Source: a virus
Length of the DNA: 64,000 nucleotides
Direction: 5' to 3' (one strand)
Virus record (IMG/VR): IMGVR_UViG_3300044846_005371
Location: 56,169 to 120,168 of that record
Part shown: one piece after another, positions 2,196-60,941 of the stretch
How positions within the stretch are numbered: the stretch's first letter is position 1
Layout: the number at the start of each line of letters is the position of its first letter
Position numbers and translations under genes: made by a program
The notes under the pieces: generated by a model
What the model was told of the DNA's origin: nothing
Databases searched by the model: none
Seen by the model: the letters and a program-made list of their open reading frames with translations, nothing else

Positions 2196-5100
2196 TGCCA
2201 ATTAGGATTAACCTTAGAGAAGTTTTTGCTTCAGACAGCCAAACAATCGCAGTCGATAAAATAAATTTCAACTTCAACAAAATTCTCGAGTTAGGAGTTG
2301 GTGAAGAAGGACCACTAGGAGATACTGGCCCTCAGGGACCAGCAGGTCCGGTCGGTCCAGAAGGCCCAGTCGGACAAGACGGTATTACTTGGCATGTAGG
2401 TTCAACTGACCCTAACGTAACGCCACCTTCTCCTGTTCAAGATGGAGATTTTTACTTAAATACCTCTGACTCAACTATTTGGCAGTGGGATGAAGGTGGA
2501 ACTGTGTGGAATCAATTAATTGATTTTACAACAATAATAAATGCTTACTTAGCGACTACTACTCAAACCTTTTTTAGAGGATTTGGTGATCCTTCCGATA
2601 CTAACTTTATAGTTTTTCCAAATAGGGACGAAATTGGCGACGGTAGTACTGATATATTGTTTTTATCTAACTTTAATGAAATTACTACACCTATTTCAAA
2701 TTTATCTAGCCCATATACTTCTTTACTAGATGGAGGAATTTTACAAATTTATGCTGATTCTACTGCCGGTGGGTCAGATGCTAGAGCAAATCTAGAATTT
2801 GGAGCGATATACTCAAATGGAGTAGATACTCTAATTAGCGAGAGAGATCAAAACTTAAAAATAAAATACTATCAGCATGATAATGAAGATAGTACATTCA
2901 CGTCAGTTGCTTCATTCAATATTAGTAAGTTAGAAGGCAGTGATATTACAGCAATTGATAGATACGGTGTACTAAAATTTATTACTCCAAATTACGTAGA
3001 TGGAGGAACTAATTCAGAACTATCATTTTACTTGGGATCACAAGGCGGTACTTCATATCTAACATCAGAATCTTTAAATTCATCTGGCTTAGTAATTACT
3101 TCAAGTGCGTCTTACAACTGGATAGAATTCGGTATTGCTGATGATCTATTTTGGTCAGATTCAACCTACGCATATCGTGATGCAGATTCAGATTTTTTGA
3201 ATATTTCAGGAAACAATAAAAATTATGTTTATCTGAAGGGAGGAGACAACACATCAGGCGTTTTCATAGATTCAACATTAGTTCAAGATTCCGGAGATAT
3301 TATTCAAGCTGGAACTGGCAGCTTTGTTAAAAATAAAGTAATCACACCTCCAATAAATACTGGACAAAGTGCGTCAGATTATTCTAAACATACTGGAATG
3401 GCGATGTATGGCGACAGAATTTATGTAGTTCATGGAGACCCTACGTTAACTACTTCAATTAGTAGCACAGCTTCAGCGTACGACAAGTATCACGTTTTAT
3501 TAGCAACTGACCCTTCTAATTTAAAAAACTGGATAACTCAAGAGAATCTTTCACTTAGCTCAACTTCTTCTAGTTTTTTATATGGTGCATGTGATATTGA
3601 TATTGCTGGAGATTATGCATATATTGTAAGTAACCATACATCCGACCGAAGCGGTACAAAAATCCCTTTTGCTATTGCAAAAATAGACGAAGAATATCAC
3701 GGCGAGTTAACATTACTATATTCATTGTCTAATAGTAATTACTCAAATGGTGCAATTACGTCAAGTAATACGCAATCCGATAATAACTTGGGATACGCTT
3801 GGACAAATCTATCTGCCGCCTACCGCCTTAAAGTTAAAGGAAATATCGCATACGTTATTAACAAATATGATGATGATTCCGCTTTTTCTGGAGACGGGAT
3901 AGAAGGTGATCAAGCCGGTGCATACTTATCTGCTATAGATATAAGTAATCCATACAATCCAATTATTGTAAATTCAGTCGTTTCCTCAGGAGAAAAGAGA
4001 AGTACTGATATGGCAGGTACTACTTATTCTTACGGAGGATATCGTCACCTTGCGCTAGATGTAAATAAATCAATTGCTGCTACTTTAACCTGGAAAAGAC
4101 TAACTACTGGTGCTTCTTCTCCAGATTACTCAAGAGACGAGTTTGGAGATGATGTAACTAGTGGAACTACCAATCAAATCATATTAAATCTATATGATCT
4201 TTCGGATGCTAGAACAGATGCCGACTTAATATATTCTCCTGACGCTACTGAAGAGCTCCCAAGTGTACCAAATCTTCGTAGATTTTCAGCAACTCCAATT
4301 CAGACCCAATCGACCGGCCCGTTAACTGACTTTGGATCAGTCTCAATATTTAGAAATTATGTATTTGTATCTTGGGAAAATAGCGTATATGTATACCAAA
4401 TACCTAATAATATTAAGCCTAATGTTGAGTCATTAATTGCAAATCCAGCAACCTCTTTGTTAACTTATGAGATGGCTGACTCTACTTATTATGCAATTGA
4501 TAGTAAGATATCAGGAAGATTCCTATATGTTCTATGGAGAAAAACAGTAGGTACTACTGGTGTAGTAACTAAACACGATATCTTTAAGATGATTGAGGTC
4601 GGTGGAAACAGTTCACTTGAACCGATTGCATCATATCAATTTGCACTTGAGTCTTCATATGGAAATGGAGTAAGCAGACTACTTATAAATGGCAAATATG
4701 TTTATGTTTCGTCATCTCATTCAGATGACCAGTTCGGCAGTGAACCATTAAACATAAAAACTTTGAGTTCAGACGGTATTATTTCGCCAGCTGCTCATAT
4801 AGACTCCATCCAAACTTCTATCTTAAAGGTAAATGAAACCATAAATGTTGGAGATTCTGCAAATATTGGACACTCTTTAAACGTAGGATCTGGAGGAATT
4901 GCGACAACTGGTCCTGTTTCTGCCCGTGGAATAAATGGAAATTTCCATAACTTTGGAGTAAGCGCGCCTTTAAGTAATTCATTTAACCCAACAATTAGTT
5001 CTCATGATAAGCCACTTTGTGGAATTTCATCGAATTTATCAATTTTACAAAGCGGATTATATCAATTTACTAATATTAGTCCTACTACTGAACAAAGATT

Positions 5101-5545
5101 TTTTACATTTACTCACACTGCCCAAGGCACACCAGTGCCTTATTCTGGAGGATTCCAAGCGATACGTTTACTTTGGACTAGAGTCGGGAATGTTGTAAAT
5201 GTATCAGGATTTGTGTATGTAGAAAGTACCCCTCTTCCTGCGTTATATGGATTCGCATTTCCAGCTCCATTGTATCCTGCTGAAATTTCGTCAGACGGTC
5301 CATATTCTTTATATGCAGCTGGCGTAGGTAACGCAATAGGAGGAGGTGTTCAAGTTTCAGGAACACTTAGTGCGTATTATGATGTAGATATTTCAACAAC
5401 TATTGAGTGCATCAACGTTGTTACTGGAGAACTTGAAGATCTATCTGTTCCCTACCTAGCTTTACGATTTTTTAATAATGATATTGATCAAGAGCTAGGT
5501 AATTTCTACTTTTCAGGTTCTTATTTGCTAACTAACCTTAGTTAA
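2195..5545 (+). CDS. Fibre-like virion protein with collagen repeats and beta-propeller-like region
   Basis: The protein has 1116 residues. An N-terminal segment of about 38 residues is probably the virion attachment part. Residues 39-62 are eight Gly-X-Y triplets typical of phage collagen-like stalks. Repeats around residues 380-880 contain phrases such as AIDISNPYNPI and GDYAYIVSN, which resemble LVIVD-type beta-propeller repeats. The C-terminal part (about 900-1116) is Gly/Ser/Tyr-rich and may be the receptor-binding tip. It is translationally coupled to the preceding structural gene (TAATG) and its stop overlaps the stop of the opposing gene at 5542. Fibre function is inferred from the collagen stalk and the neighbours; the receptor is unknown. 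Confidence 0.7.
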   Translation: MPIRINLREVFASDSQTIAVDKINFNFNKILELGVGEEGPLGDTGPQGPAGPVGPEGPVGQDGITWHVGSTDPNVTPPSPVQDGDFYLNTSDSTIWQWDEGGTVWNQLIDFTTIINAYLATTTQTFFRGFGDPSDTNFIVFPNRDEIGDGSTDILFLSNFNEITTPISNLSSPYTSLLDGGILQIYADSTAGGSDARANLEFGAIYSNGVDTLISERDQNLKIKYYQHDNEDSTFTSVASFNISKLEGSDITAIDRYGVLKFITPNYVDGGTNSELSFYLGSQGGTSYLTSESLNSSGLVITSSASYNWIEFGIADDLFWSDSTYAYRDADSDFLNISGNNKNYVYLKGGDNTSGVFIDSTLVQDSGDIIQAGTGSFVKNKVITPPINTGQSASDYSKHTGMAMYGDRIYVVHGDPTLTTSISSTASAYDKYHVLLATDPSNLKNWITQENLSLSSTSSSFLYGACDIDIAGDYAYIVSNHTSDRSGTKIPFAIAKIDEEYHGELTLLYSLSNSNYSNGAITSSNTQSDNNLGYAWTNLSAAYRLKVKGNIAYVINKYDDDSAFSGDGIEGDQAGAYLSAIDISNPYNPIIVNSVVSSGEKRSTDMAGTTYSYGGYRHLALDVNKSIAATLTWKRLTTGASSPDYSRDEFGDDVTSGTTNQIILNLYDLSDARTDADLIYSPDATEELPSVPNLRRFSATPIQTQSTGPLTDFGSVSIFRNYVFVSWENSVYVYQIPNNIKPNVESLIANPATSLLTYEMADSTYYAIDSKISGRFLYVLWRKTVGTTGVVTKHDIFKMIEVGGNSSLEPIASYQFALESSYGNGVSRLLINGKYVYVSSSHSDDQFGSEPLNIKTLSSDGIISPAAHIDSIQTSILKVNETINVGDSANIGHSLNVGSGGIATTGPVSARGINGNFHNFGVSAPLSNSFNPTISSHDKPLCGISSNLSILQSGLYQFTNISPTTEQRFFTFTHTAQGTPVPYSGGFQAIRLLWTRVGNVVNVSGFVYVESTPLPALYGFAFPAPLYPAEISSDGPYSLYAAGVGNAIGGGVQVSGTLSAYYDVDISTTIECINVVTGELEDLSVPYLALRFFNNDIDQELGNFYFSGSYLLTNLS
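2309..2380 (+). repeat. Collagen-like Gly-X-Y triplet run
   Basis: Eight consecutive Gly-X-Y triplets (GPL GDT GPQ GPA GPV GPE GPV GQD) lie inside the fibre-like gene. Such runs trimerise phage fibre stalks and vary in length by slippage. Confidence 0.9.
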
Positions 5546-6345
5546 ATCCATTGACCACTAGTGAATGGCATGATCTTTTCGCTAAAGATTAGCTTGTGCA
5601 TTTCACCAATTATATTGATTTCAAACGCTAGATTTTTGAGAAGCCCTTTATTTAGAATGACAATGTCCTTCATTACTTGAGCTACTTGATTTTCATCGCA
5701 ATCTTTTTGCATTATCGCAAAACATACATTAGTATTTGGAGTCATGTTGCTAAGCTGATCGATATTCAATTCATCAACTGCCTCTTTAAGAGCATTTTCC
5801 TTGACTTTCTTCAGTGTGACTTCACCAACCTGTGAGAAAGAGTAATTAAAGTTTTTTCTACGATCCTCCTTAAGCTTCCATACAGTATATGTGAGAGTTC
5901 CTTCATAATTTGTGACTATAAAAATCTCCTTTTCTTTATGTAATCCTGGATTAGTCATAAATATCTTTACTCCCTCCATTATGTCTAACTGGATATCCAT
6001 ATAGTCTAATATGAGATTTGAGAATACATAATTTGCATTCTTAAATATTTCAACAGTGTCTTGAGGTATATTATAAATTTCCTTAAGTTGTTCTTTAATC
6101 GCTTTTAGTCGAGGTTCGTTAAAAATGGGTCTTAACTTGAAGTCAAATACAAATCCTTCAACTGCTAAATTATTTAAGTTTAGACTGTGAAATAGAACTT
6201 CAGTAAATCTTGAAATATTCCCTTCATCAATCTCTTTCTTGTACTTTTGATTAGCCGCGAGTAGAATGTATGCGAAGTATTCTGGGTCCAAATACCTTCC
6301 CTTTGTGATCCATAGCGGATCCAGTATGTATTCGCTCTTCTTCAT
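5542..6345 (-). CDS. Unknown protein, 267 aa
   Basis: An ATG-started frame with a late-type promoter element 10-25 nt upstream (6354-6370). It points away from the gene at 6438 and converges on the fibre gene, sharing stop bases. The product looks globular and mixed alpha/beta, with a Lys/Glu-rich middle and a Trp-Ile C-terminus, and has no signal peptide or membrane segment. I do not recognise the family. The late promoter element and structural neighbours suggest a late gene, possibly virion assembly; this is inference. Confidence 0.6.
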   Translation of the reverse strand: MKKSEYILDPLWITKGRYLDPEYFAYILLAANQKYKKEIDEGNISRFTEVLFHSLNLNNLAVEGFVFDFKLRPIFNEPRLKAIKEQLKEIYNIPQDTVEIFKNANYVFSNLILDYMDIQLDIMEGVKIFMTNPGLHKEKEIFIVTNYEGTLTYTVWKLKEDRRKNFNYSFSQVGEVTLKKVKENALKEAVDELNIDQLSNMTPNTNVCFAIMQKDCDENQVAQVMKDIVILNKGLLKNLAFEINIIGEMHKLIFSEKIMPFTSGQWI

Positions 6346-6353
6346 AAGCTTTC

Positions 6354-6370
6354 TTTTTATTATTTATTTT
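6354..6370 (-). promoter_or_regulatory. Late promoter-like element
   Basis: Read on the minus strand this is AAAATAAATAATAAAAA, just upstream of the 267-aa gene. It matches the recurring element and resembles the T4 late box TATAAATA. Confidence 0.7.
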
Positions 6371-6407
6371 ACTCAATTTCAAGTACCAGTTTAGCGTAGA
6401 TTATTTG

Positions 6408-6423
6408 AATAAATAATAAAAAG
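6408..6423 (+). promoter_or_regulatory. Late promoter-like element
   Basis: AATAAATAATAAAAAG lies 15 nt before the ATG at 6438, divergent from the element at 6354-6370. No Shine-Dalgarno sequence is present. Confidence 0.75.
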
Positions 6424-16001: not shown

Positions 16002-16253
16002 ATGACAAAAATTATTGAAAACGATTTTACTGGAGGTCAAGGTGCAATGCCTCAGCAACCCCAGATCAATCCGGCAGATTTGCCATATATTGAATGCGAA
16101 TCATGTGGACACAAAGTCTTTGAAGAAAAGATGATGATAAAAAAAGTATCTAAGTTATTGACAGGCAATCCAACTGACTCAATTATGCCAGTTCCAGTTA
16201 TTGCTTGCTCAAAATGCGGACATGTTAACGAACTCTTTATGCCAAAAGTATGA
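16002..16253 (+). CDS. Small zinc-ribbon protein
   Basis: The protein has 83 residues with two Cys pairs, CESCGH and CSKCGH, about 36 residues apart, forming a probable zinc ribbon. The N-terminus is Gln/Pro-rich and disordered. It overlaps the polymerase start by 4 nt (ATGA), so the two are co-expressed. A DNA- or polymerase-binding role is a guess from that coupling. Confidence 0.7.
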   Translation: MTKIIENDFTGGQGAMPQQPQINPADLPYIECESCGHKVFEEKMMIKKVSKLLTGNPTDSIMPVPVIACSKCGHVNELFMPKV

Positions 16254-17674
16254 TAGTTGGTTCAGAAGTATTAAATGATAGCAATGAGCTACTAATCTCA
16301 TATTATGGAAGTGATGGCAAGATATCGTACATCCGAAAGAGACTTCACGATCATGAAATGTTTAACTGGGTAGAATCGTCAGTTCCCTCAGCTATTAAAG
16401 CATGGAATGGTAAATCGTTAAAGAAGGCAAACTCTAATGGTCGATATATGTCTCAATTTAGAATTCAGGAATTGATCAAAGAGAAATTAACCCCTGAAGA
16501 AATTGAAGCTATCTACTCATTTGATAACTTGCCAAAGAAACACTACTTAGATATCGAGATCAAGCTACTTGATGAATCTTTTCCAGATCCTGAGAGAGCT
16601 AGAATGCCAGTAGGTTTAGTATCATTCTGTAATGAGGATGATGTCACATACGTACTTTCAATGATGAATAATGAAGAGCAACCGAATGGTTTATCTGAAG
16701 AGGACATCAAGCGAATGGAAAACGATGTGAAAGAATACTTTAAAGGAATTGTTCCATTAAAACCTGAGGATGCTAAGTTATTCAATAAGGATTTCAAGAT
16801 AAAGTATGTTTACTTTAACACTGAAGAAGAACTTTTAGAATTTTACTTTCATAAGATTCTTCCAAAGATGTCCTTCATTACTGGTTGGAACGTAACCGAA
16901 TTCGACTGGAAGTACTTAATGAATCGTTGCTCAAATATGAAAGTTGATTCCATGCAAAACATGGTGTCCAGAGCAACTTTCTCAAAAGTAAAGATTCCAA
17001 CTCACATGGGAATACTTGACTATATGCAAGTATTTGAGAAACTAAAGCCATATAAAGTTGTTGAAAACTACAAGCTTGATTACATCGCAAGTATAGTTTT
17101 AAATGCAACTAAATTGAAGCATGATTATGCAACCATGTTTGAGTTTCAAAAGGATCTTTATCTCTTTACAATGTATAACGTAATTGACGTTATCCTCGTT
17201 AAATTGATTGAAGAAAAGCTATCAATTCTTGATGTTGCATTCTCAATTGCAAATGTTGCGCAAGTTGAAGTAAACAAAGTATTTAGTCCAGTTTACATTG
17301 CTGAACTATTGATGTGTCGTGAATTCTTGAATAAGAATCTTAGGATGCCGAAACCTGAATGGGGACAATCTAATGATGTTGATGCAACATATGAAGGCGC
17401 ATACGTAAAGAAACCAAACCCAGGTCACTATAGTTACGTAGCATGTTATGACTTCTCATCAATGTATCCTAACATTCAAATACAATTCAATATTTCTCCA
17501 GATACCTATCTTGGGAAAGCAGATGAAGTTAAGAGAAAGGGTGGAGAGATAACTACTCGAAACAATACTTTATTTAGAAGTGATACTGACTCAGCAGCTC
17601 GAACCATCTTAACAAAACTATACAACGAACGTATATCAACTCAAGGAGAAATTAAAAAGTTAAAAAATAAGTAA
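16250..17674 (+). CDS. gp43A: DNA polymerase family B, N-terminal part (split gp43)
   Basis: The protein has 474 residues and resembles the first half of T4 gp43 (898 aa). The proofreading exonuclease is complete: Exo I D101-I-E103, Exo II in GWNVTEFDWKYLMNR, Exo III in YNVIDVILVK. The palm begins with motif A (YDFSSMYPNI, catalytic-type D401) and the gene stops about 70 residues later at TKLYNERISTQGEIKKLKNK. Motif B (fingers) and motif C (the DTD catalytic site) are absent, and the next frame is unrelated. Polymerisation therefore needs a separate C-terminal polypeptide encoded outside this window. Split gene 43 is known from some Aeromonas T4-like phages. Confidence 0.88.
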   Translation: MIVGSEVLNDSNELLISYYGSDGKISYIRKRLHDHEMFNWVESSVPSAIKAWNGKSLKKANSNGRYMSQFRIQELIKEKLTPEEIEAIYSFDNLPKKHYLDIEIKLLDESFPDPERARMPVGLVSFCNEDDVTYVLSMMNNEEQPNGLSEEDIKRMENDVKEYFKGIVPLKPEDAKLFNKDFKIKYVYFNTEEELLEFYFHKILPKMSFITGWNVTEFDWKYLMNRCSNMKVDSMQNMVSRATFSKVKIPTHMGILDYMQVFEKLKPYKVVENYKLDYIASIVLNATKLKHDYATMFEFQKDLYLFTMYNVIDVILVKLIEEKLSILDVAFSIANVAQVEVNKVFSPVYIAELLMCREFLNKNLRMPKPEWGQSNDVDATYEGAYVKKPNPGHYSYVACYDFSSMYPNIQIQFNISPDTYLGKADEVKRKGGEITTRNNTLFRSDTDSAARTILTKLYNERISTQGEIKKLKNK

Positions 17675-39281: not shown

Positions 39282-40910
39282 TTAAGGAACGATAGTAGTT
39301 GATCCAGTCAAGATACCAATAGCGCCATCTGACAATGTCATAGTAACGTATTGAGTTTCTGGATGCCATCCAGCCTCGGTGATAGCATAACGAGACTTCA
39401 TTCCGATCTTAGGAGAGAAAGTTCCCTCTGCGATAGTTTGAAGAGACTCGGCCATGATGTAAGGCATGAATTTAACACCTGGTTCTTCATCAGCACCTTT
39501 ACGTCCGAAAACGATACGATCTGATCCGAAAGGCAAGTTAGGATCTACAAATACTTGTACTCCATAAACTTTACCAGCAGGATACAATTGACCAGCTGTT
39601 CCAGCGAAGTCGCTAGGAACTTGAGCGATGCTGTAACCAGCAACGTCAGCCAACGCAGAAGCAACACGACCACCACATACCATGAAGGTAGCAGCACCGA
39701 AACGACCTCTGTGATAGATCAAGTTAGCTAATTCAAGAACCTTAGTAACGAAACGACGTTGCAAAGTTGAAGTGTTATCGAAAGAACCTGCAGCCAAGTT
39801 CAAAGTAACAACATCAGAACCTTCTAATGCAATCGCTTGGTTAGCACCAGCCTCACCCATTTGGAATACACGGTCAACCAAACGCTTGTTGATTGATTGT
39901 GCTAAGTCATTAACTGCAACGTTTTCCAACATTGAGATAACATCATAGTTCCAAACACGGTTTAAGTCTTGGATTTGCTCAACAGTAGCAGAGATAGCAA
40001 CTTGGTCAGTTTCAGCCTCTACAAACTTGGTGAACATACGAAGACCCATTTGACGGAACTTAGAGTTCTCACCTTGTTCACGACGCATTGCACCAGGAAC
40101 ATCACCAGTAGCTGGCAAGTATGGACCATTGAATGCAGCACCTTGATAATCCTCATCAGATACGCTAGTGAAACCAGAAATATGGTTTTCAAGAGCAGAT
40201 ACTAATTGTACATCAGCTGAAGCAACTGTGTAGTTAGGAGCAGTGTTTGCACCGATTGCAGTGATGTTACCTACTAAGTCACCAGCGACTGTGTCACCAG
40301 CACCCAATTCCTCTTCTACTTTAATGATCAAATGACCATCTACGCGAGAGAAACCTACGAATGTGTAAGCTCCAGTAGCAGCACTGTGTACGATTGAATC
40401 ACCAGGAGTGAAAGTACCACCACCTAAAGCAGCAGCAGTTGCTCCAACGATTTTAACCAAATATGGTTCGAATTCGCTAGTAGTACGACCACCTGCGTAA
40501 ACGTAATCCAAATAAGGTAAGAAACCTACTGGAGAATCCATAGGAACTACTGGAACAAGGTCGAAACCAATTGTCTTAGCAGCAACTTGGATAGCTACTG
40601 GAAGTAAGCTTGGGAATTTATCACCAGAACCACCAGTAGTAGTTTTAGCACCATTAAAATAAGGTGCTTGAGTGTTCAATGGAGCAACTGGGTTACCCAT
40701 GCCATTTAAAGCGCCAGGAGTTTGCAAGAACTGACCAGGAGATGCTTGCTCGAAAAGAGGAGTAGCATTTTCGAACATTGCGTGGTTATGAGCGTAATCT
40801 ACTAACCAAGGCGTCTTGTTCAAATCTGCACCATGTCCTTCCAATACAGGCTTCCAAGTAGTTGCTAAACGATTGTCGCTAGAACGTTTGAAAATTTTTG
40901 TACGTGCCAT
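39282..40910 (-). CDS. gp23: Major capsid protein, gp23-like
   Basis: The protein has 542 residues (T4 gp23 has 521). The N-terminal pro-region contains TWKPVLEGHG, as in T4 (WKPLLEGEG), and ends near residue 54 with TPLFE before QASPG, a probable prohead protease cut (T4 cuts after E65). The HK97-type core starts near PVAIQVAAKTIGFDLVPVVPMDSPVGFLPYLDYVYAG, matching gp23. An insertion domain (about 150-230) and a C-terminal KIGMKSRYAITEAGWHPE follow. Base composition is visibly less AT-rich than its neighbours, as expected for a very highly expressed gene. Confidence 0.94.
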   Translation of the reverse strand: MARTKIFKRSSDNRLATTWKPVLEGHGADLNKTPWLVDYAHNHAMFENATPLFEQASPGQFLQTPGALNGMGNPVAPLNTQAPYFNGAKTTTGGSGDKFPSLLPVAIQVAAKTIGFDLVPVVPMDSPVGFLPYLDYVYAGGRTTSEFEPYLVKIVGATAAALGGGTFTPGDSIVHSAATGAYTFVGFSRVDGHLIIKVEEELGAGDTVAGDLVGNITAIGANTAPNYTVASADVQLVSALENHISGFTSVSDEDYQGAAFNGPYLPATGDVPGAMRREQGENSKFRQMGLRMFTKFVEAETDQVAISATVEQIQDLNRVWNYDVISMLENVAVNDLAQSINKRLVDRVFQMGEAGANQAIALEGSDVVTLNLAAGSFDNTSTLQRRFVTKVLELANLIYHRGRFGAATFMVCGGRVASALADVAGYSIAQVPSDFAGTAGQLYPAGKVYGVQVFVDPNLPFGSDRIVFGRKGADEEPGVKFMPYIMAESLQTIAEGTFSPKIGMKSRYAITEAGWHPETQYVTMTLSDGAIGILTGSTTIVP

Positions 40911-40941
40911 TTTTTGATTTGATTTTTTTAGTTACTTGTTA

Positions 40942-42159
40942 TTAACCGTTTGCTCGGCGAAGCAAACCGTCCAAGTATGATTGAGAGTAACCTCTCTGCA
41001 TATCAACTACCTGTTCTACAGGAATTAGGCCTTCTGTACCTTGGCTTTCGTTGAGTTTTGCTATTTTTAAATTATGTTTTTCAATTTCAACTCTTTCATT
41101 TACTGCTCTGAAATCCATTTCGTCCCAAAATGCTTTTGCTTGATATGGAGTATTGATAGTAAATAATTGAGCCTTTGCATGAATTCTGTTTTGCTCAGAC
41201 TCATTCATAGTTGTCCATACTGATTTGTATTCAGCTGGCATAAAACGTAAGTAGTTAGGAAGATCTGCAGCTTGCTTATTAACTACTGCTTCCATGATAC
41301 TCATTACTTCGTTCTCATTGAACCATACTGATCCATTCAAAGTTTCAACAACTGCTTGCTTAGTTTGAGAATCTAAGTTATAGAAAGCAGAGCGATTTGA
41401 TTCAGAAAGAACTTTCAAGAAAGGATGCTTGTTTTCCAAAACTTCTTTAGCTGATTTGTTCTTAACTTGAATCAACGCTTCGTCAACTTTAGAAATCAAT
41501 TGATCTACTTTACTAACTCCATTTAAAAGATTACGACCTTCTGCTGGAGTGAATGATCCGCTATTTAATGATTCTACCACATACTCAGTGTATCCAATAG
41601 ATTCAGTTAGTTTGTTAGAGATATAGTCAGAATAATCGCGATTCAAATTCAAGTTTTCAGCTAAATATTCAGAATACTCTAATCCTTTGTTAGCACCTTC
41701 TGCAACATACTCAATGTATTGAATAGACTCATCCAATTCCTTACCTAAGTAGTTTTGATAGTTGATGCTAGTGTTTAAGTTTTCTTTCAAATACTCAGAG
41801 TACTTAATGTTTTGATCAACTTTCTCAGCAACATACTCTTGGTAATTGATGCTCTGATTCAATTTTTCTCCAATGTAGCTAGTGTACTCAATAGAATTAT
41901 TGGTAGTCTCAGCAACGTGCTCAGTATAACGAATTGCTTCGTTCATTTTCTTGCTTAAGTATTCAGTGTAGTTAATTAGACCTTCCATGTTCTCAGCTAA
42001 GTAATTAACAAAGCCAGTCAATTTAGAAGAGTCCACATCAGAATTAGAAGATTCAAGCAAAGATTTTTGCTCTTTTAATTCTTTCTTAATACCCTGAATC
42101 TGTTGTTTCAATACTTCAGAATACTGATTCATCTGATCCTTTGTTACGAAATCGGCCAT
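40942..42159 (-). CDS. gp22: Possible nested in-frame scaffold protein
   Basis: An in-frame ATG at 42159 (residue 245, MADFVTKDQMNQYSEV) begins exactly where the protease ends and the scaffold begins. A late promoter-like element (42221-42232) lies about 60 nt upstream and this is the first ATG after it. The nested product would be 405 residues of pure scaffold. Analogous nested scaffolds (lambda C/Nu3) are known. The product itself is inferred. Confidence 0.5.
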   Translation of the reverse strand: MADFVTKDQMNQYSEVLKQQIQGIKKELKEQKSLLESSNSDVDSSKLTGFVNYLAENMEGLINYTEYLSKKMNEAIRYTEHVAETTNNSIEYTSYIGEKLNQSINYQEYVAEKVDQNIKYSEYLKENLNTSINYQNYLGKELDESIQYIEYVAEGANKGLEYSEYLAENLNLNRDYSDYISNKLTESIGYTEYVVESLNSGSFTPAEGRNLLNGVSKVDQLISKVDEALIQVKNKSAKEVLENKHPFLKVLSESNRSAFYNLDSQTKQAVVETLNGSVWFNENEVMSIMEAVVNKQAADLPNYLRFMPAEYKSVWTTMNESEQNRIHAKAQLFTINTPYQAKAFWDEMDFRAVNERVEIEKHNLKIAKLNESQGTEGLIPVEQVVDMQRGYSQSYLDGLLRRANG

Positions 42160-42891
42160 TTGCGATGTATTTTTTTCTTGAGATATGGATGTTTCAAATA
42201 CAGATTTGAATTCCTTATCTTTTTTATTTATCTTGTACACTTTATAATTATCTGCAAAATTTAAACTTTCAGATACGTCATCCAGGTTATGAGTTTCAAC
42301 AAATGATCTATTCTTCATAGCATCATAGCTCTCAGTTATCATCTCAAACTCACTCTTTAGAGACTCATTCATAGTTTTCTTAAGAACTGCTTGTGTAAAA
42401 CCAGGCTCACCTACTAAATCGTAAGTAAAGATTCTGTGTAATCTAACTCGCCCTTCTGATAAAACCTCTCCTGCTGATCTTGATGATACTGATAGAGTAA
42501 CTCCACCGTCTAATAAAGCTTTTGCAATCTTTCCATTTGGAGTGTTTTCCAAAATTCTCAATTTGATCATCACCTTATTGTCACCATCAAAATATAAATC
42601 TTCGATGATATGTGATGCGCTCTTTAGAGTAACATCAAAATGAGGTGGGTGGTCAAGATCTCCAACAAGTTGACCTTTTGAGATTTTCTCCTTTAAATAT
42701 GAAAGGTGTGGTAGATATTCGTTCTTTTCGTATACTCTACGATTGTTATTCATTTCGCCGAATACTGCGCAAACTCCCTCCAATATCGTGTTGTTTTGAG
42801 ATCTGCTCTTTACTGCTAAATCTTCTCCAACATTTTCAACGATCAGAACCCAATCGTTTGGCAAGTTTGAATTTAAAGAATTACTCTTCAA
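40942..42891 (-). CDS. gp21: Prohead protease fused to scaffolding core (gp21-gp22-like)
   Basis: The protein has 649 residues from a TTG start at 42891 (a stop codon lies two codons upstream and no ATG comes before residue about 47). Residues 1-200 are a T4 gp21-type serine protease: NRRVYEKNEYLP, GDLDHPPHFDV with the catalytic-type His, KALLDGGVTLSVSSRSAG with the catalytic-type Ser, and YDLVGEPGF. The second half is a coiled-coil scaffold with ten 14-residue repeats. It would shape the prohead and then digest core, capsid pro-regions and cargo signals. T4 encodes the two activities as separate genes. Confidence 0.88.
   Translation of the reverse strand: MKSNSLNSNLPNDWVLIVENVGEDLAVKSRSQNNTILEGVCAVFGEMNNNRRVYEKNEYLPHLSYLKEKISKGQLVGDLDHPPHFDVTLKSASHIIEDLYFDGDNKVMIKLRILENTPNGKIAKALLDGGVTLSVSSRSAGEVLSEGRVRLHRIFTYDLVGEPGFTQAVLKKTMNESLKSEFEMITESYDAMKNRSFVETHNLDDVSESLNFADNYKVYKINKKDKEFKSVFETSISQEKNTSQMADFVTKDQMNQYSEVLKQQIQGIKKELKEQKSLLESSNSDVDSSKLTGFVNYLAENMEGLINYTEYLSKKMNEAIRYTEHVAETTNNSIEYTSYIGEKLNQSINYQEYVAEKVDQNIKYSEYLKENLNTSINYQNYLGKELDESIQYIEYVAEGANKGLEYSEYLAENLNLNRDYSDYISNKLTESIGYTEYVVESLNSGSFTPAEGRNLLNGVSKVDQLISKVDEALIQVKNKSAKEVLENKHPFLKVLSESNRSAFYNLDSQTKQAVVETLNGSVWFNENEVMSIMEAVVNKQAADLPNYLRFMPAEYKSVWTTMNESEQNRIHAKAQLFTINTPYQAKAFWDEMDFRAVNERVEIEKHNLKIAKLNESQGTEGLIPVEQVVDMQRGYSQSYLDGLLRRANG
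41558..41977 (-). repeat. Ten tandem 14-residue repeats in the scaffold
   Basis: Units of 42 bp encode consensus I-x-Y-x-E-Y-[LV]-[AG]-E-x-[LV]-[ND]-x-S, for example INYQEYVAEKVDQN and IKYSEYLKENLNTS. Fourteen residues equals two heptads, giving a regular coiled coil. A degenerate unit precedes them up to about 42015. Confidence 0.9.
42221..42232 (-). promoter_or_regulatory. Internal late promoter-like element
   Basis: Minus-strand AGATAAATAAAA within the protease-scaffold gene, upstream of the nested ATG at 42159. Confidence 0.5.
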
Positions 42892-42900
42892 AGCCTAAAA

Positions 42901-42920
42901 TTTTTTTATTATTTATTATA
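42901..42920 (-). promoter_or_regulatory. Late promoter-like element for protease-scaffold
   Basis: Minus-strand TATAATAAATAATAAAAAAA, about 10 nt before the TTG start; it supports that unusual start. Confidence 0.75.
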
Positions 42921-42949
42921 GGCTTTTTGTAAAAACTTGTGAGTTTTCC

Positions 42950-43891
42950 CTATTTACTTAGGAGATCTTTTAGAATTATTAATTCTTCCTCACTTAAACT
43001 AGATAAATCTGGGCCAAGTACTTTAAATCTAACTACATAATCTCCTCTTATTCCATCAACTTTCATTATGCCCTGTTGCTTTATTGTTAATTTAAGAGAG
43101 CTTAAATTTTTAGCTGAATTGAATTCAGCGTCGTATTGCTTATCAAATATTGTAGATATTCTAACCTTCTCTCCCTTAAGTATTGCCTGATGCAGAGGAA
43201 TTTCAAGTTCATGCACAACTAATCCATCTTCTAATTTAAGATTAACTGCATTCATCAATTCAATGTGAACATATAGATCACCTGCATGAAATACAGATTC
43301 AATATCTCCCCAAATTCCAACTTTACCTATTCTTTCCTCGTGCCCTAATTTTTGAATTCTTACCTTGATTACATTCTTTCCATCTTCTGAAATAATATTA
43401 AACTTTTTTTCGCTTAAATTTATTTCGACAGATATCGTCTTTTCTTCCGTTCCAAATGACTGGTCAGGTTGAATAACTCTTCGTGCCACGTCAAATTCTA
43501 TCTTTGTTCCAAGTAAAGCATCAGCTAGTCCTAAGCTAACGGTATGAACTATATCTAGGTGTTGTGTTTGCTCCTTTACCTTCTTTTCAGTAAAGCCAGA
43601 GCCACGTCTAAAGTCTTTTCTAAAGGACTCGTTAGATCTAACGAAATCATCAAATGAAAAATCTGAATTGCGACTTCTTCCATAATTAAATTTAGGTGCA
43701 TCATGTTCCTTTCTCTTTTTTTCATCCCCTAGTACTGAGTATGCTTCCGCAATTTCCTTAAATTTGTCAGCCGCTCCATCTTCCTTATTTTTATCGGGAT
43801 GATACTTTACCGCAAGCTTACGATAGGCTTTTTTAATCTCATCAGCCGTTGCTGATTTATTAATGCCGAGTATTTTGTAGTAATCCTTCAT
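42950..43891 (-). CDS. dnaJ: DnaJ-like co-chaperone
   Basis: The protein has 313 residues. The N-terminal J domain is complete ([23 protein letters not shown] with HPD at 31-33, [15 protein letters not shown]). A short Phe/Ser-rich linker and two substrate-binding beta domains follow, with no Cys-rich zinc domain, as in DnaJ type B/CbpA. It would recruit host DnaK. It sits between the scaffold and baseplate genes, so assistance to virion assembly is likely; T4 instead encodes a GroES-like gp31. Confidence 0.9.
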
Positions 43892-60882: not shown

Positions 60883-60900
60883 TTTTGTTATTTATTATTG
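60883..60900 (-). promoter_or_regulatory. Late promoter-like element
   Basis: Minus-strand CAATAATAAATAACAAAA, 12-29 nt before the ATG at 60871; divergent from 60926. Confidence 0.65.
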
Positions 60901-60925
60901 AGACCGCCTGAAATTTTGTCCATTT

Positions 60926-60941
60926 CTAATAAATAAAAAAA
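60926..60941 (+). promoter_or_regulatory. Late promoter-like element
   Basis: CTAATAAATAAAAAAA lies 12-27 nt before the ATG at 60953. Confidence 0.65.

Follow-up and report, generated by a model that had tools for sequence, protein, structure and literature searches.

A phage prohead protease gene with a probable nested scaffold gene and internal late promoter

We analysed a window of 64 kilobases (kb) taken from a 120 kb phage record in IMG/VR (IMGVR_UViG_3300044846_005371). On its minus strand, at 40942–42891, lies an open frame of 649 codons that begins with TTG (42891–42889) and joins a protease related to T4 gp21 to a helical scaffold. The protease domain (residues 22–186) is encoded at 42334–42828 and eleven 14-residue repeats (residues 295–448) at 41548–42009, both on the minus strand. 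Between the two halves is a linker of approximately residues 174–251. This linker contains both a copy of the late promoter word ATAAATAA (42224–42231, minus) and an in-frame ATG (42159–42157), which opens a nested frame of 405 codons beginning MADFVTK (40942–42159, minus). The next gene downstream encodes a gp23-type major capsid protein (39282–40910, minus). We suggest that the scaffold half probably has its own late promoter and start codon, forming a nested gene pair that would supply little protease-scaffold and an excess of free scaffold.

Domain and PHROG searches match residues 22–186 to Peptidase_S77, Peptidase_S80 (Pfam PF03420/PF20034) and the head maturation protease phrog_207. The PF03420 match scores 48.5 bits, above the curated cut-off of 27 for the Peptidase_S77 profile, and a profile of the family retrieves T4 gp21 (5JBL). 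The catalytic motifs DHP (His81) and SSR (Ser136/137) are invariant and have counterparts in T4 (GELNHP and SSRG). In the AlphaFold2 model the protease is confident at residues 34–170, followed by a poorly ordered linker (approximately 174–251), a long helix (287–434) and a helical C-terminal domain; the best fold match is again 5JBL, with herpesvirus assemblins next. By profile, motifs and modelled fold, the protease half is a T4 gp21-type prohead protease, and its cleavage activity is predicted.

The scaffold half has several traits of T4 gp22: it lies between the protease and gp23, is helical and is rich in (L/I)xE. A profile comparison with gp22 using hhalign gave a probability of 0.4%, and the PHROG search returned no match to phrog_237 at an E value of 1 or below. 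As neither search found similarity, homology to gp22 was dropped; the scaffold half may be a functional counterpart of gp22. T4 gp21 cleaves after (L/I)xE (PMC9026906). This motif occurs 11 times in the scaffold versus 6.5 expected (p value 0.04; 0.003 or less in the relatives tested) and falls at the same place in many of the repeats. It is also present in the N-terminus of the capsid protein of close relatives (PLFE, SLNE). From these motifs we infer that the scaffold and head proteins would be cleaved after (L/I/V)xE, a form found in many of the repeats.

Relatives were collected in two IMG/VR scans, of 17 and 80 loci, giving 74 distinct loci after phage records were added. They include uncultured phages of 460–735 kb. 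Group 1 comprises relatives of about 44–67% identity and group 2, its sister clade, those of about 35%. Apart from fragments at contig ends, all 74 loci are fused in one frame except L091 (around 4001–5917), whose frame was read as 425 residues; its repeats continue past an in-frame TGA, which could reflect an error, recoding or decay. A preliminary description of this DNA had read the frame as a gp21-like protease followed by a scaffold, and the open frame, the Pfam, PHROG and fold matches and the fused relatives all agree with it.

The internal element reads ATAAATAAAAAA, and its core ATAAATAA (42231–42224) lies 72 nucleotides (nt) 5' of the nested ATG. Genome-wide, 16 of 22 copies of ATAAATAA are located 12–80 nt before a gene, mostly at 22–32 nt. 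Among all permutations of its letters it is the most upstream-biased in the genome, and the same is true in a second group 1 genome. ATAAATAA is thus an A/T-rich word standing shortly before late genes, as expected of a T4-type late promoter, and it differs from the T4 word TATAAATA by the frame of its letters. A homologue of the gp55-type late sigma factor is encoded in the same record (phrog_234, E value 1.1e-15) and in 9 of 12 relatives.

Within the gene, the word is maintained in a manner that the protein sequence does not demand. All 38 divergent group 1 relatives carry ATAAATAA at the internal site, compared with 11% expected from synonymous shuffling; for the linker of the window's own gene, 8% of synonymous shuffles contain it. 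The group 1 codons read ATA AAT AAW, with ATA being the rarest Ile codon, and the residue encoded just before them can be K, R or Q. In two loci (L053 and L057) the word is shifted by some codons and still intact. Few synonymous windows of the gene are as constrained as this site. In group 2, the word enriched upstream of genes is ATATATA, which is present in the protease leaders, and the internal site follows: ATATATA is found there in 17 of 22 loci (11% expected) and ATAAATAA in one of 22. Every locus with only ATAAATAA in its leader has ATAAATAA inside the gene (44/44), and 24 of 29 loci with ATATATA in the leader carry ATATATA or ATATATnA inside. Because the internal site tracks the promoter word of each clade, it is best explained as a promoter, and these comparisons indicate that it is under selection beyond protein needs.

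The nested start shows a similar pattern. All 30 sequences compared, with identities as low as 37%, have Met245, while most neighbouring columns vary. The spacer between this Met and a conserved VT also changes in length (MADFVT, MAEKFVT, MADNKDFVT, MENNFVT, MESKKEYVT). A fixed Met with variable flanks and spacer is the behaviour of protein starts, and in view of the same variability the idea that Met245 is kept for protein reasons was rejected. An A-rich tract 5' of the ATG (42169–42179, minus), a likely translation signal, resembles those of other genes of this genome. Ranked against 521 internal ATGs, the context of the nested ATG falls at the 99.4th percentile; its score also exceeds the median of real starts, and 45 relatives give the same median. 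The codon is ATG in all 45. As judged from the alignments, the nested ATG is selected beyond protein needs, and the gene has a conserved in-frame internal start of the kind known from UL26/UL26.5 or Mu I/Z. The preliminary description had placed a late-type element and an in-frame ATG at the domain junction. Both are borne out: each lies in the linker and is conserved beyond protein needs, the element tracking the clade's promoter word and the ATG opening the MADFVTK frame at an invariant Met.

The outer start is of a different character. Its own copy of ATAAATAA (42909–42916, minus) is 25 nt 5' of the TTG, which lies 25 nt 3' of a second ATAAATAATAAAA; the preliminary description makes no mention of this TTG start. 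Among 41 group 1 relatives the outer codon is TTG in 32, GTG in five and ATG in four, such that the full-length start is usually, to judge by its codon, a weak one (TTG or GTG in 37 of 41). An inverted repeat, AAAGCCTA / TAGGCTTT (42890–42926, minus), encloses this upstream promoter, and its 3' arm reaches the TTG start. A repeat of this layout is found in the window and in about half of 23 distinct leaders. Although the arm sequences change from one relative to the next, they pair better (mean 17.0) than shuffled arms (11.1) or arms taken from different relatives (12.6). The repeat, whose arms show covariation across relatives, resembles the hairpins that hide the start of T4 gene e. In T4 e, soc, 49 and I-TevI, such hairpins silence read-through mRNA, and the late transcripts start inside them (PMC3014915). 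By analogy, the leader repeat is a possible start-hiding hairpin in read-through mRNA, and such mRNA would yield little protease here. The T4 leaders are alike in that an inverted repeat encloses a late promoter and is able to hide the start in read-through mRNA. They are unlike in that the gene concerned here encodes a prohead protease and starts with TTG, the repeat is present in only about half of the distinct leaders and the arrangement is known from sequence.

In a tree of the protease domain, the fused forms make up one supported clade. Outside this clade are T4, KVP40, S-WAM2, Minot, phiAS5 and C48C1, in which genes 21 and 22 are separate; the placement of PTm1 and Lak, on long branches, is unsure. 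In T4, TATAAATA overlaps the stop codon of gene 21 and lies 35 nt before gene 22. The same word precedes gene 22 by 37 nt in KVP40, 48 nt in S-WAM2 and 35 nt in Minot. The internal element of the fused gene occupies the position of T4 P22, between genes 21 and 22. Read most simply, these positions suggest that a scaffold gene was fused to gene 21 and that the promoter and start were retained, the direction of change being presumed.

A fusion of protease to scaffold would force a 1:1 ratio unless the scaffold half is separately expressed. The T4 prohead contains about 580 copies of gp22 to 55 of gp21, a ratio of about 1:10 of protease to scaffold (PMC9958956). In the mechanism we propose, the outer gene, with its own late promoter and weak TTG, would yield the protease-scaffold fusion in small quantity, and the internal late promoter and strong in-frame ATG would make a larger amount of free scaffold. 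The internal transcript would probably extend to the capsid gene as well. Being common to both products, the scaffold part would bring the protease into the prohead core; once assembly is complete, the enzyme would release itself and cut the scaffold after (L/I/V)xE in the 14-residue repeats. We infer the existence of the two products, their ratio, their co-assembly and the cleavage sites. More broadly, and with confidence only a little better than even, we propose that a large T4-lineage clade including phages of 460–735 kb uses a herpesvirus-like nested gene to set its protease:scaffold ratio, through a weak TTG or GTG start for the fusion, in some of the phages with a leader hairpin that would hide it, and an in-frame late promoter and ATG for the scaffold. 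The promoter would have been rewritten within coding sequence when the late word changed (ATATATA versus ATAAATAA).

Several observations weigh against the nested gene pair. Between the internal element and its ATG are 72 nt rather than the usual 22–32 nt. The relatives are non-independent samples. Synonymous constraint is also seen, unexplained, near the 3' end of the frame, so that it is by itself no proof of a promoter. In PTm1 and Lak-A1 the two parts are joined, yet neither has a clear nested Met. The AlphaFold2 model is modest overall, with a mean predicted local distance difference test score of 62 and a predicted template modelling score of 0.29.

We considered whether the same features could be explained in other ways. 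The internal promoter might mainly serve the downstream capsid gene, with the nested scaffold as a by-product. The capsid gene has a short leader that lacks ATAAATAA, making the internal promoter the nearest recognisable one upstream of it. Against this, conservation extends beyond the promoter to the nested ATG and its A-rich context, and the capsid gene may have another type of signal in the constrained 3' end; we regard this explanation as unlikely. Somewhat less likely is that only translation starts internally: ribosomes would start on full-length mRNA at the TTG as well as at the inner ATG, in the manner of lambda C/Nu3 and Mu I/Z, and ATAAATAA would not be a promoter. The strong ATG context fits such a scheme, and Mu-type phages manage with an internal start alone (PMC4378225). 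It leaves unexplained why the promoter word is fixed at synonymous positions and why the other clade has its own late word there.

Less probable again is a single product, in which the fusion is made 1:1, the protease separates itself by cutting the linker, and the inner Met and the A/T-rich word are unused. E208, which hardly varies and stands in a (V/I)SE context within the linker, would suit such a cut, and no clear nested Met is seen in PTm1 or Lak-A1. However, a single product requires equal protease and scaffold, in contrast to the ratio of about 1:10 in T4 (PMC9958956), and it leaves the invariant Met in a linker of variable length and the frozen promoter word unexplained. Finally, that an A/T-rich word and a Met fell in the linker by chance is highly improbable: such words are common at 35% guanine plus cytosine, and 8% of single-sequence shuffles have one, but the 38/38 conservation, the clade switch and the Met invariance contradict it, and synonymous shuffling together with the switch of word rules out a chance late-like word.

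The surrounding sequence has other features. A homologue of the DnaJ co-chaperone, with DnaJ and DnaJ_C domains, is encoded just upstream of the protease gene amid structural genes (42950–43891, minus). Directly 5' of the capsid gene is a stable hairpin (40932–40977, minus; z −3.6 versus shuffles), which was not evident by eye in the relatives inspected. Near the 3' end of the fused frame, AACGAAAGCCAA (41052–41041, minus) shows hardly any synonymous variation across group 1 and occurs once per genome; it was not found as a recurring genome-wide motif. Group 2 has another constrained stretch instead, in QKQKA codons. This constraint at the 3' end is possibly tied to expression of the capsid gene. 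Divergent pairs of ATAAATAA, on both strands, lie between divergently oriented genes at 6360–6420 and 60890–60935. A frame at 16250–17674 (plus), recognised by eye as a B-type DNA polymerase, has only 474 codons and is possibly the N-terminal piece of a split gene.

Among the closest known systems are T4 genes 21 and 22 with P22, which share the protease family and fold, the order protease-scaffold-capsid, a late word at the protease–scaffold boundary, a gp55-type late sigma factor and (L/I)xE motifs in the scaffold. Unlike T4, the window has a single frame with the promoter and scaffold start inside it, and no similarity of its scaffold to gp22 could be detected. A gp21-type protease fused to a long C-terminal part is also present in Tenacibaculum phage PTm1 and Prevotella phage Lak-A1, and the PTm1 protein is annotated 'prohead core scaffolding protein and protease'; they differ in having neither a clear nested Met nor ATAAATAA at the junction. 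Freshwater phages for which metatranscriptomes are available also have a 'prohead core scaffolding and protease' gene (PMC9723584), and they may or may not belong to this clade. No earlier description of the nested arrangement in T4-lineage phages was found in the literature searched, which excluded preprints and most subscription journals.

The layout resembles that of herpesviruses. In herpes simplex virus 1, the scaffold promoter of UL26/UL26.5 is inside the protease coding region and the transcripts are 3'-coterminal (PMC2949831). As proposed for the phage gene, the 3' end of the protease gene doubles as a nested, in-frame scaffold gene that has an internal promoter of its own (PMC2949831; PMC10284419), and in the structure comparison of the model the herpesvirus protease has a fold related to that of the phage protease half. 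The two differ in virus realm, hosts and promoters and share no sequence similarity; on the phage side, the promoter inside the gene belongs to the T4 late class and the scaffold forms a helix of 14-residue repeats. Lambda C/Nu3 is also a nested protease-scaffold gene, with an in-frame internal start that gives free scaffold, and the proteases of Mu I/Z and lambda C/Nu3 belong to other families than the phage protease half. Mu I/Z likewise produces free scaffold from an in-frame internal translation start, and a separate promoter is not described for it in PMC4378225. Gene callers report one protein at such a locus where two are likely. The late-promoter words are testable in poorly studied phages, and fused-clade PTm1 infects Tenacibaculum and Lak infects Prevotella. 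Because the layout matches and the protease fold is related, the phage gene offers a counterpart of UL26/UL26.5 in which control of capsid assembly by the protease:scaffold ratio can be tested, the largest known phages included.
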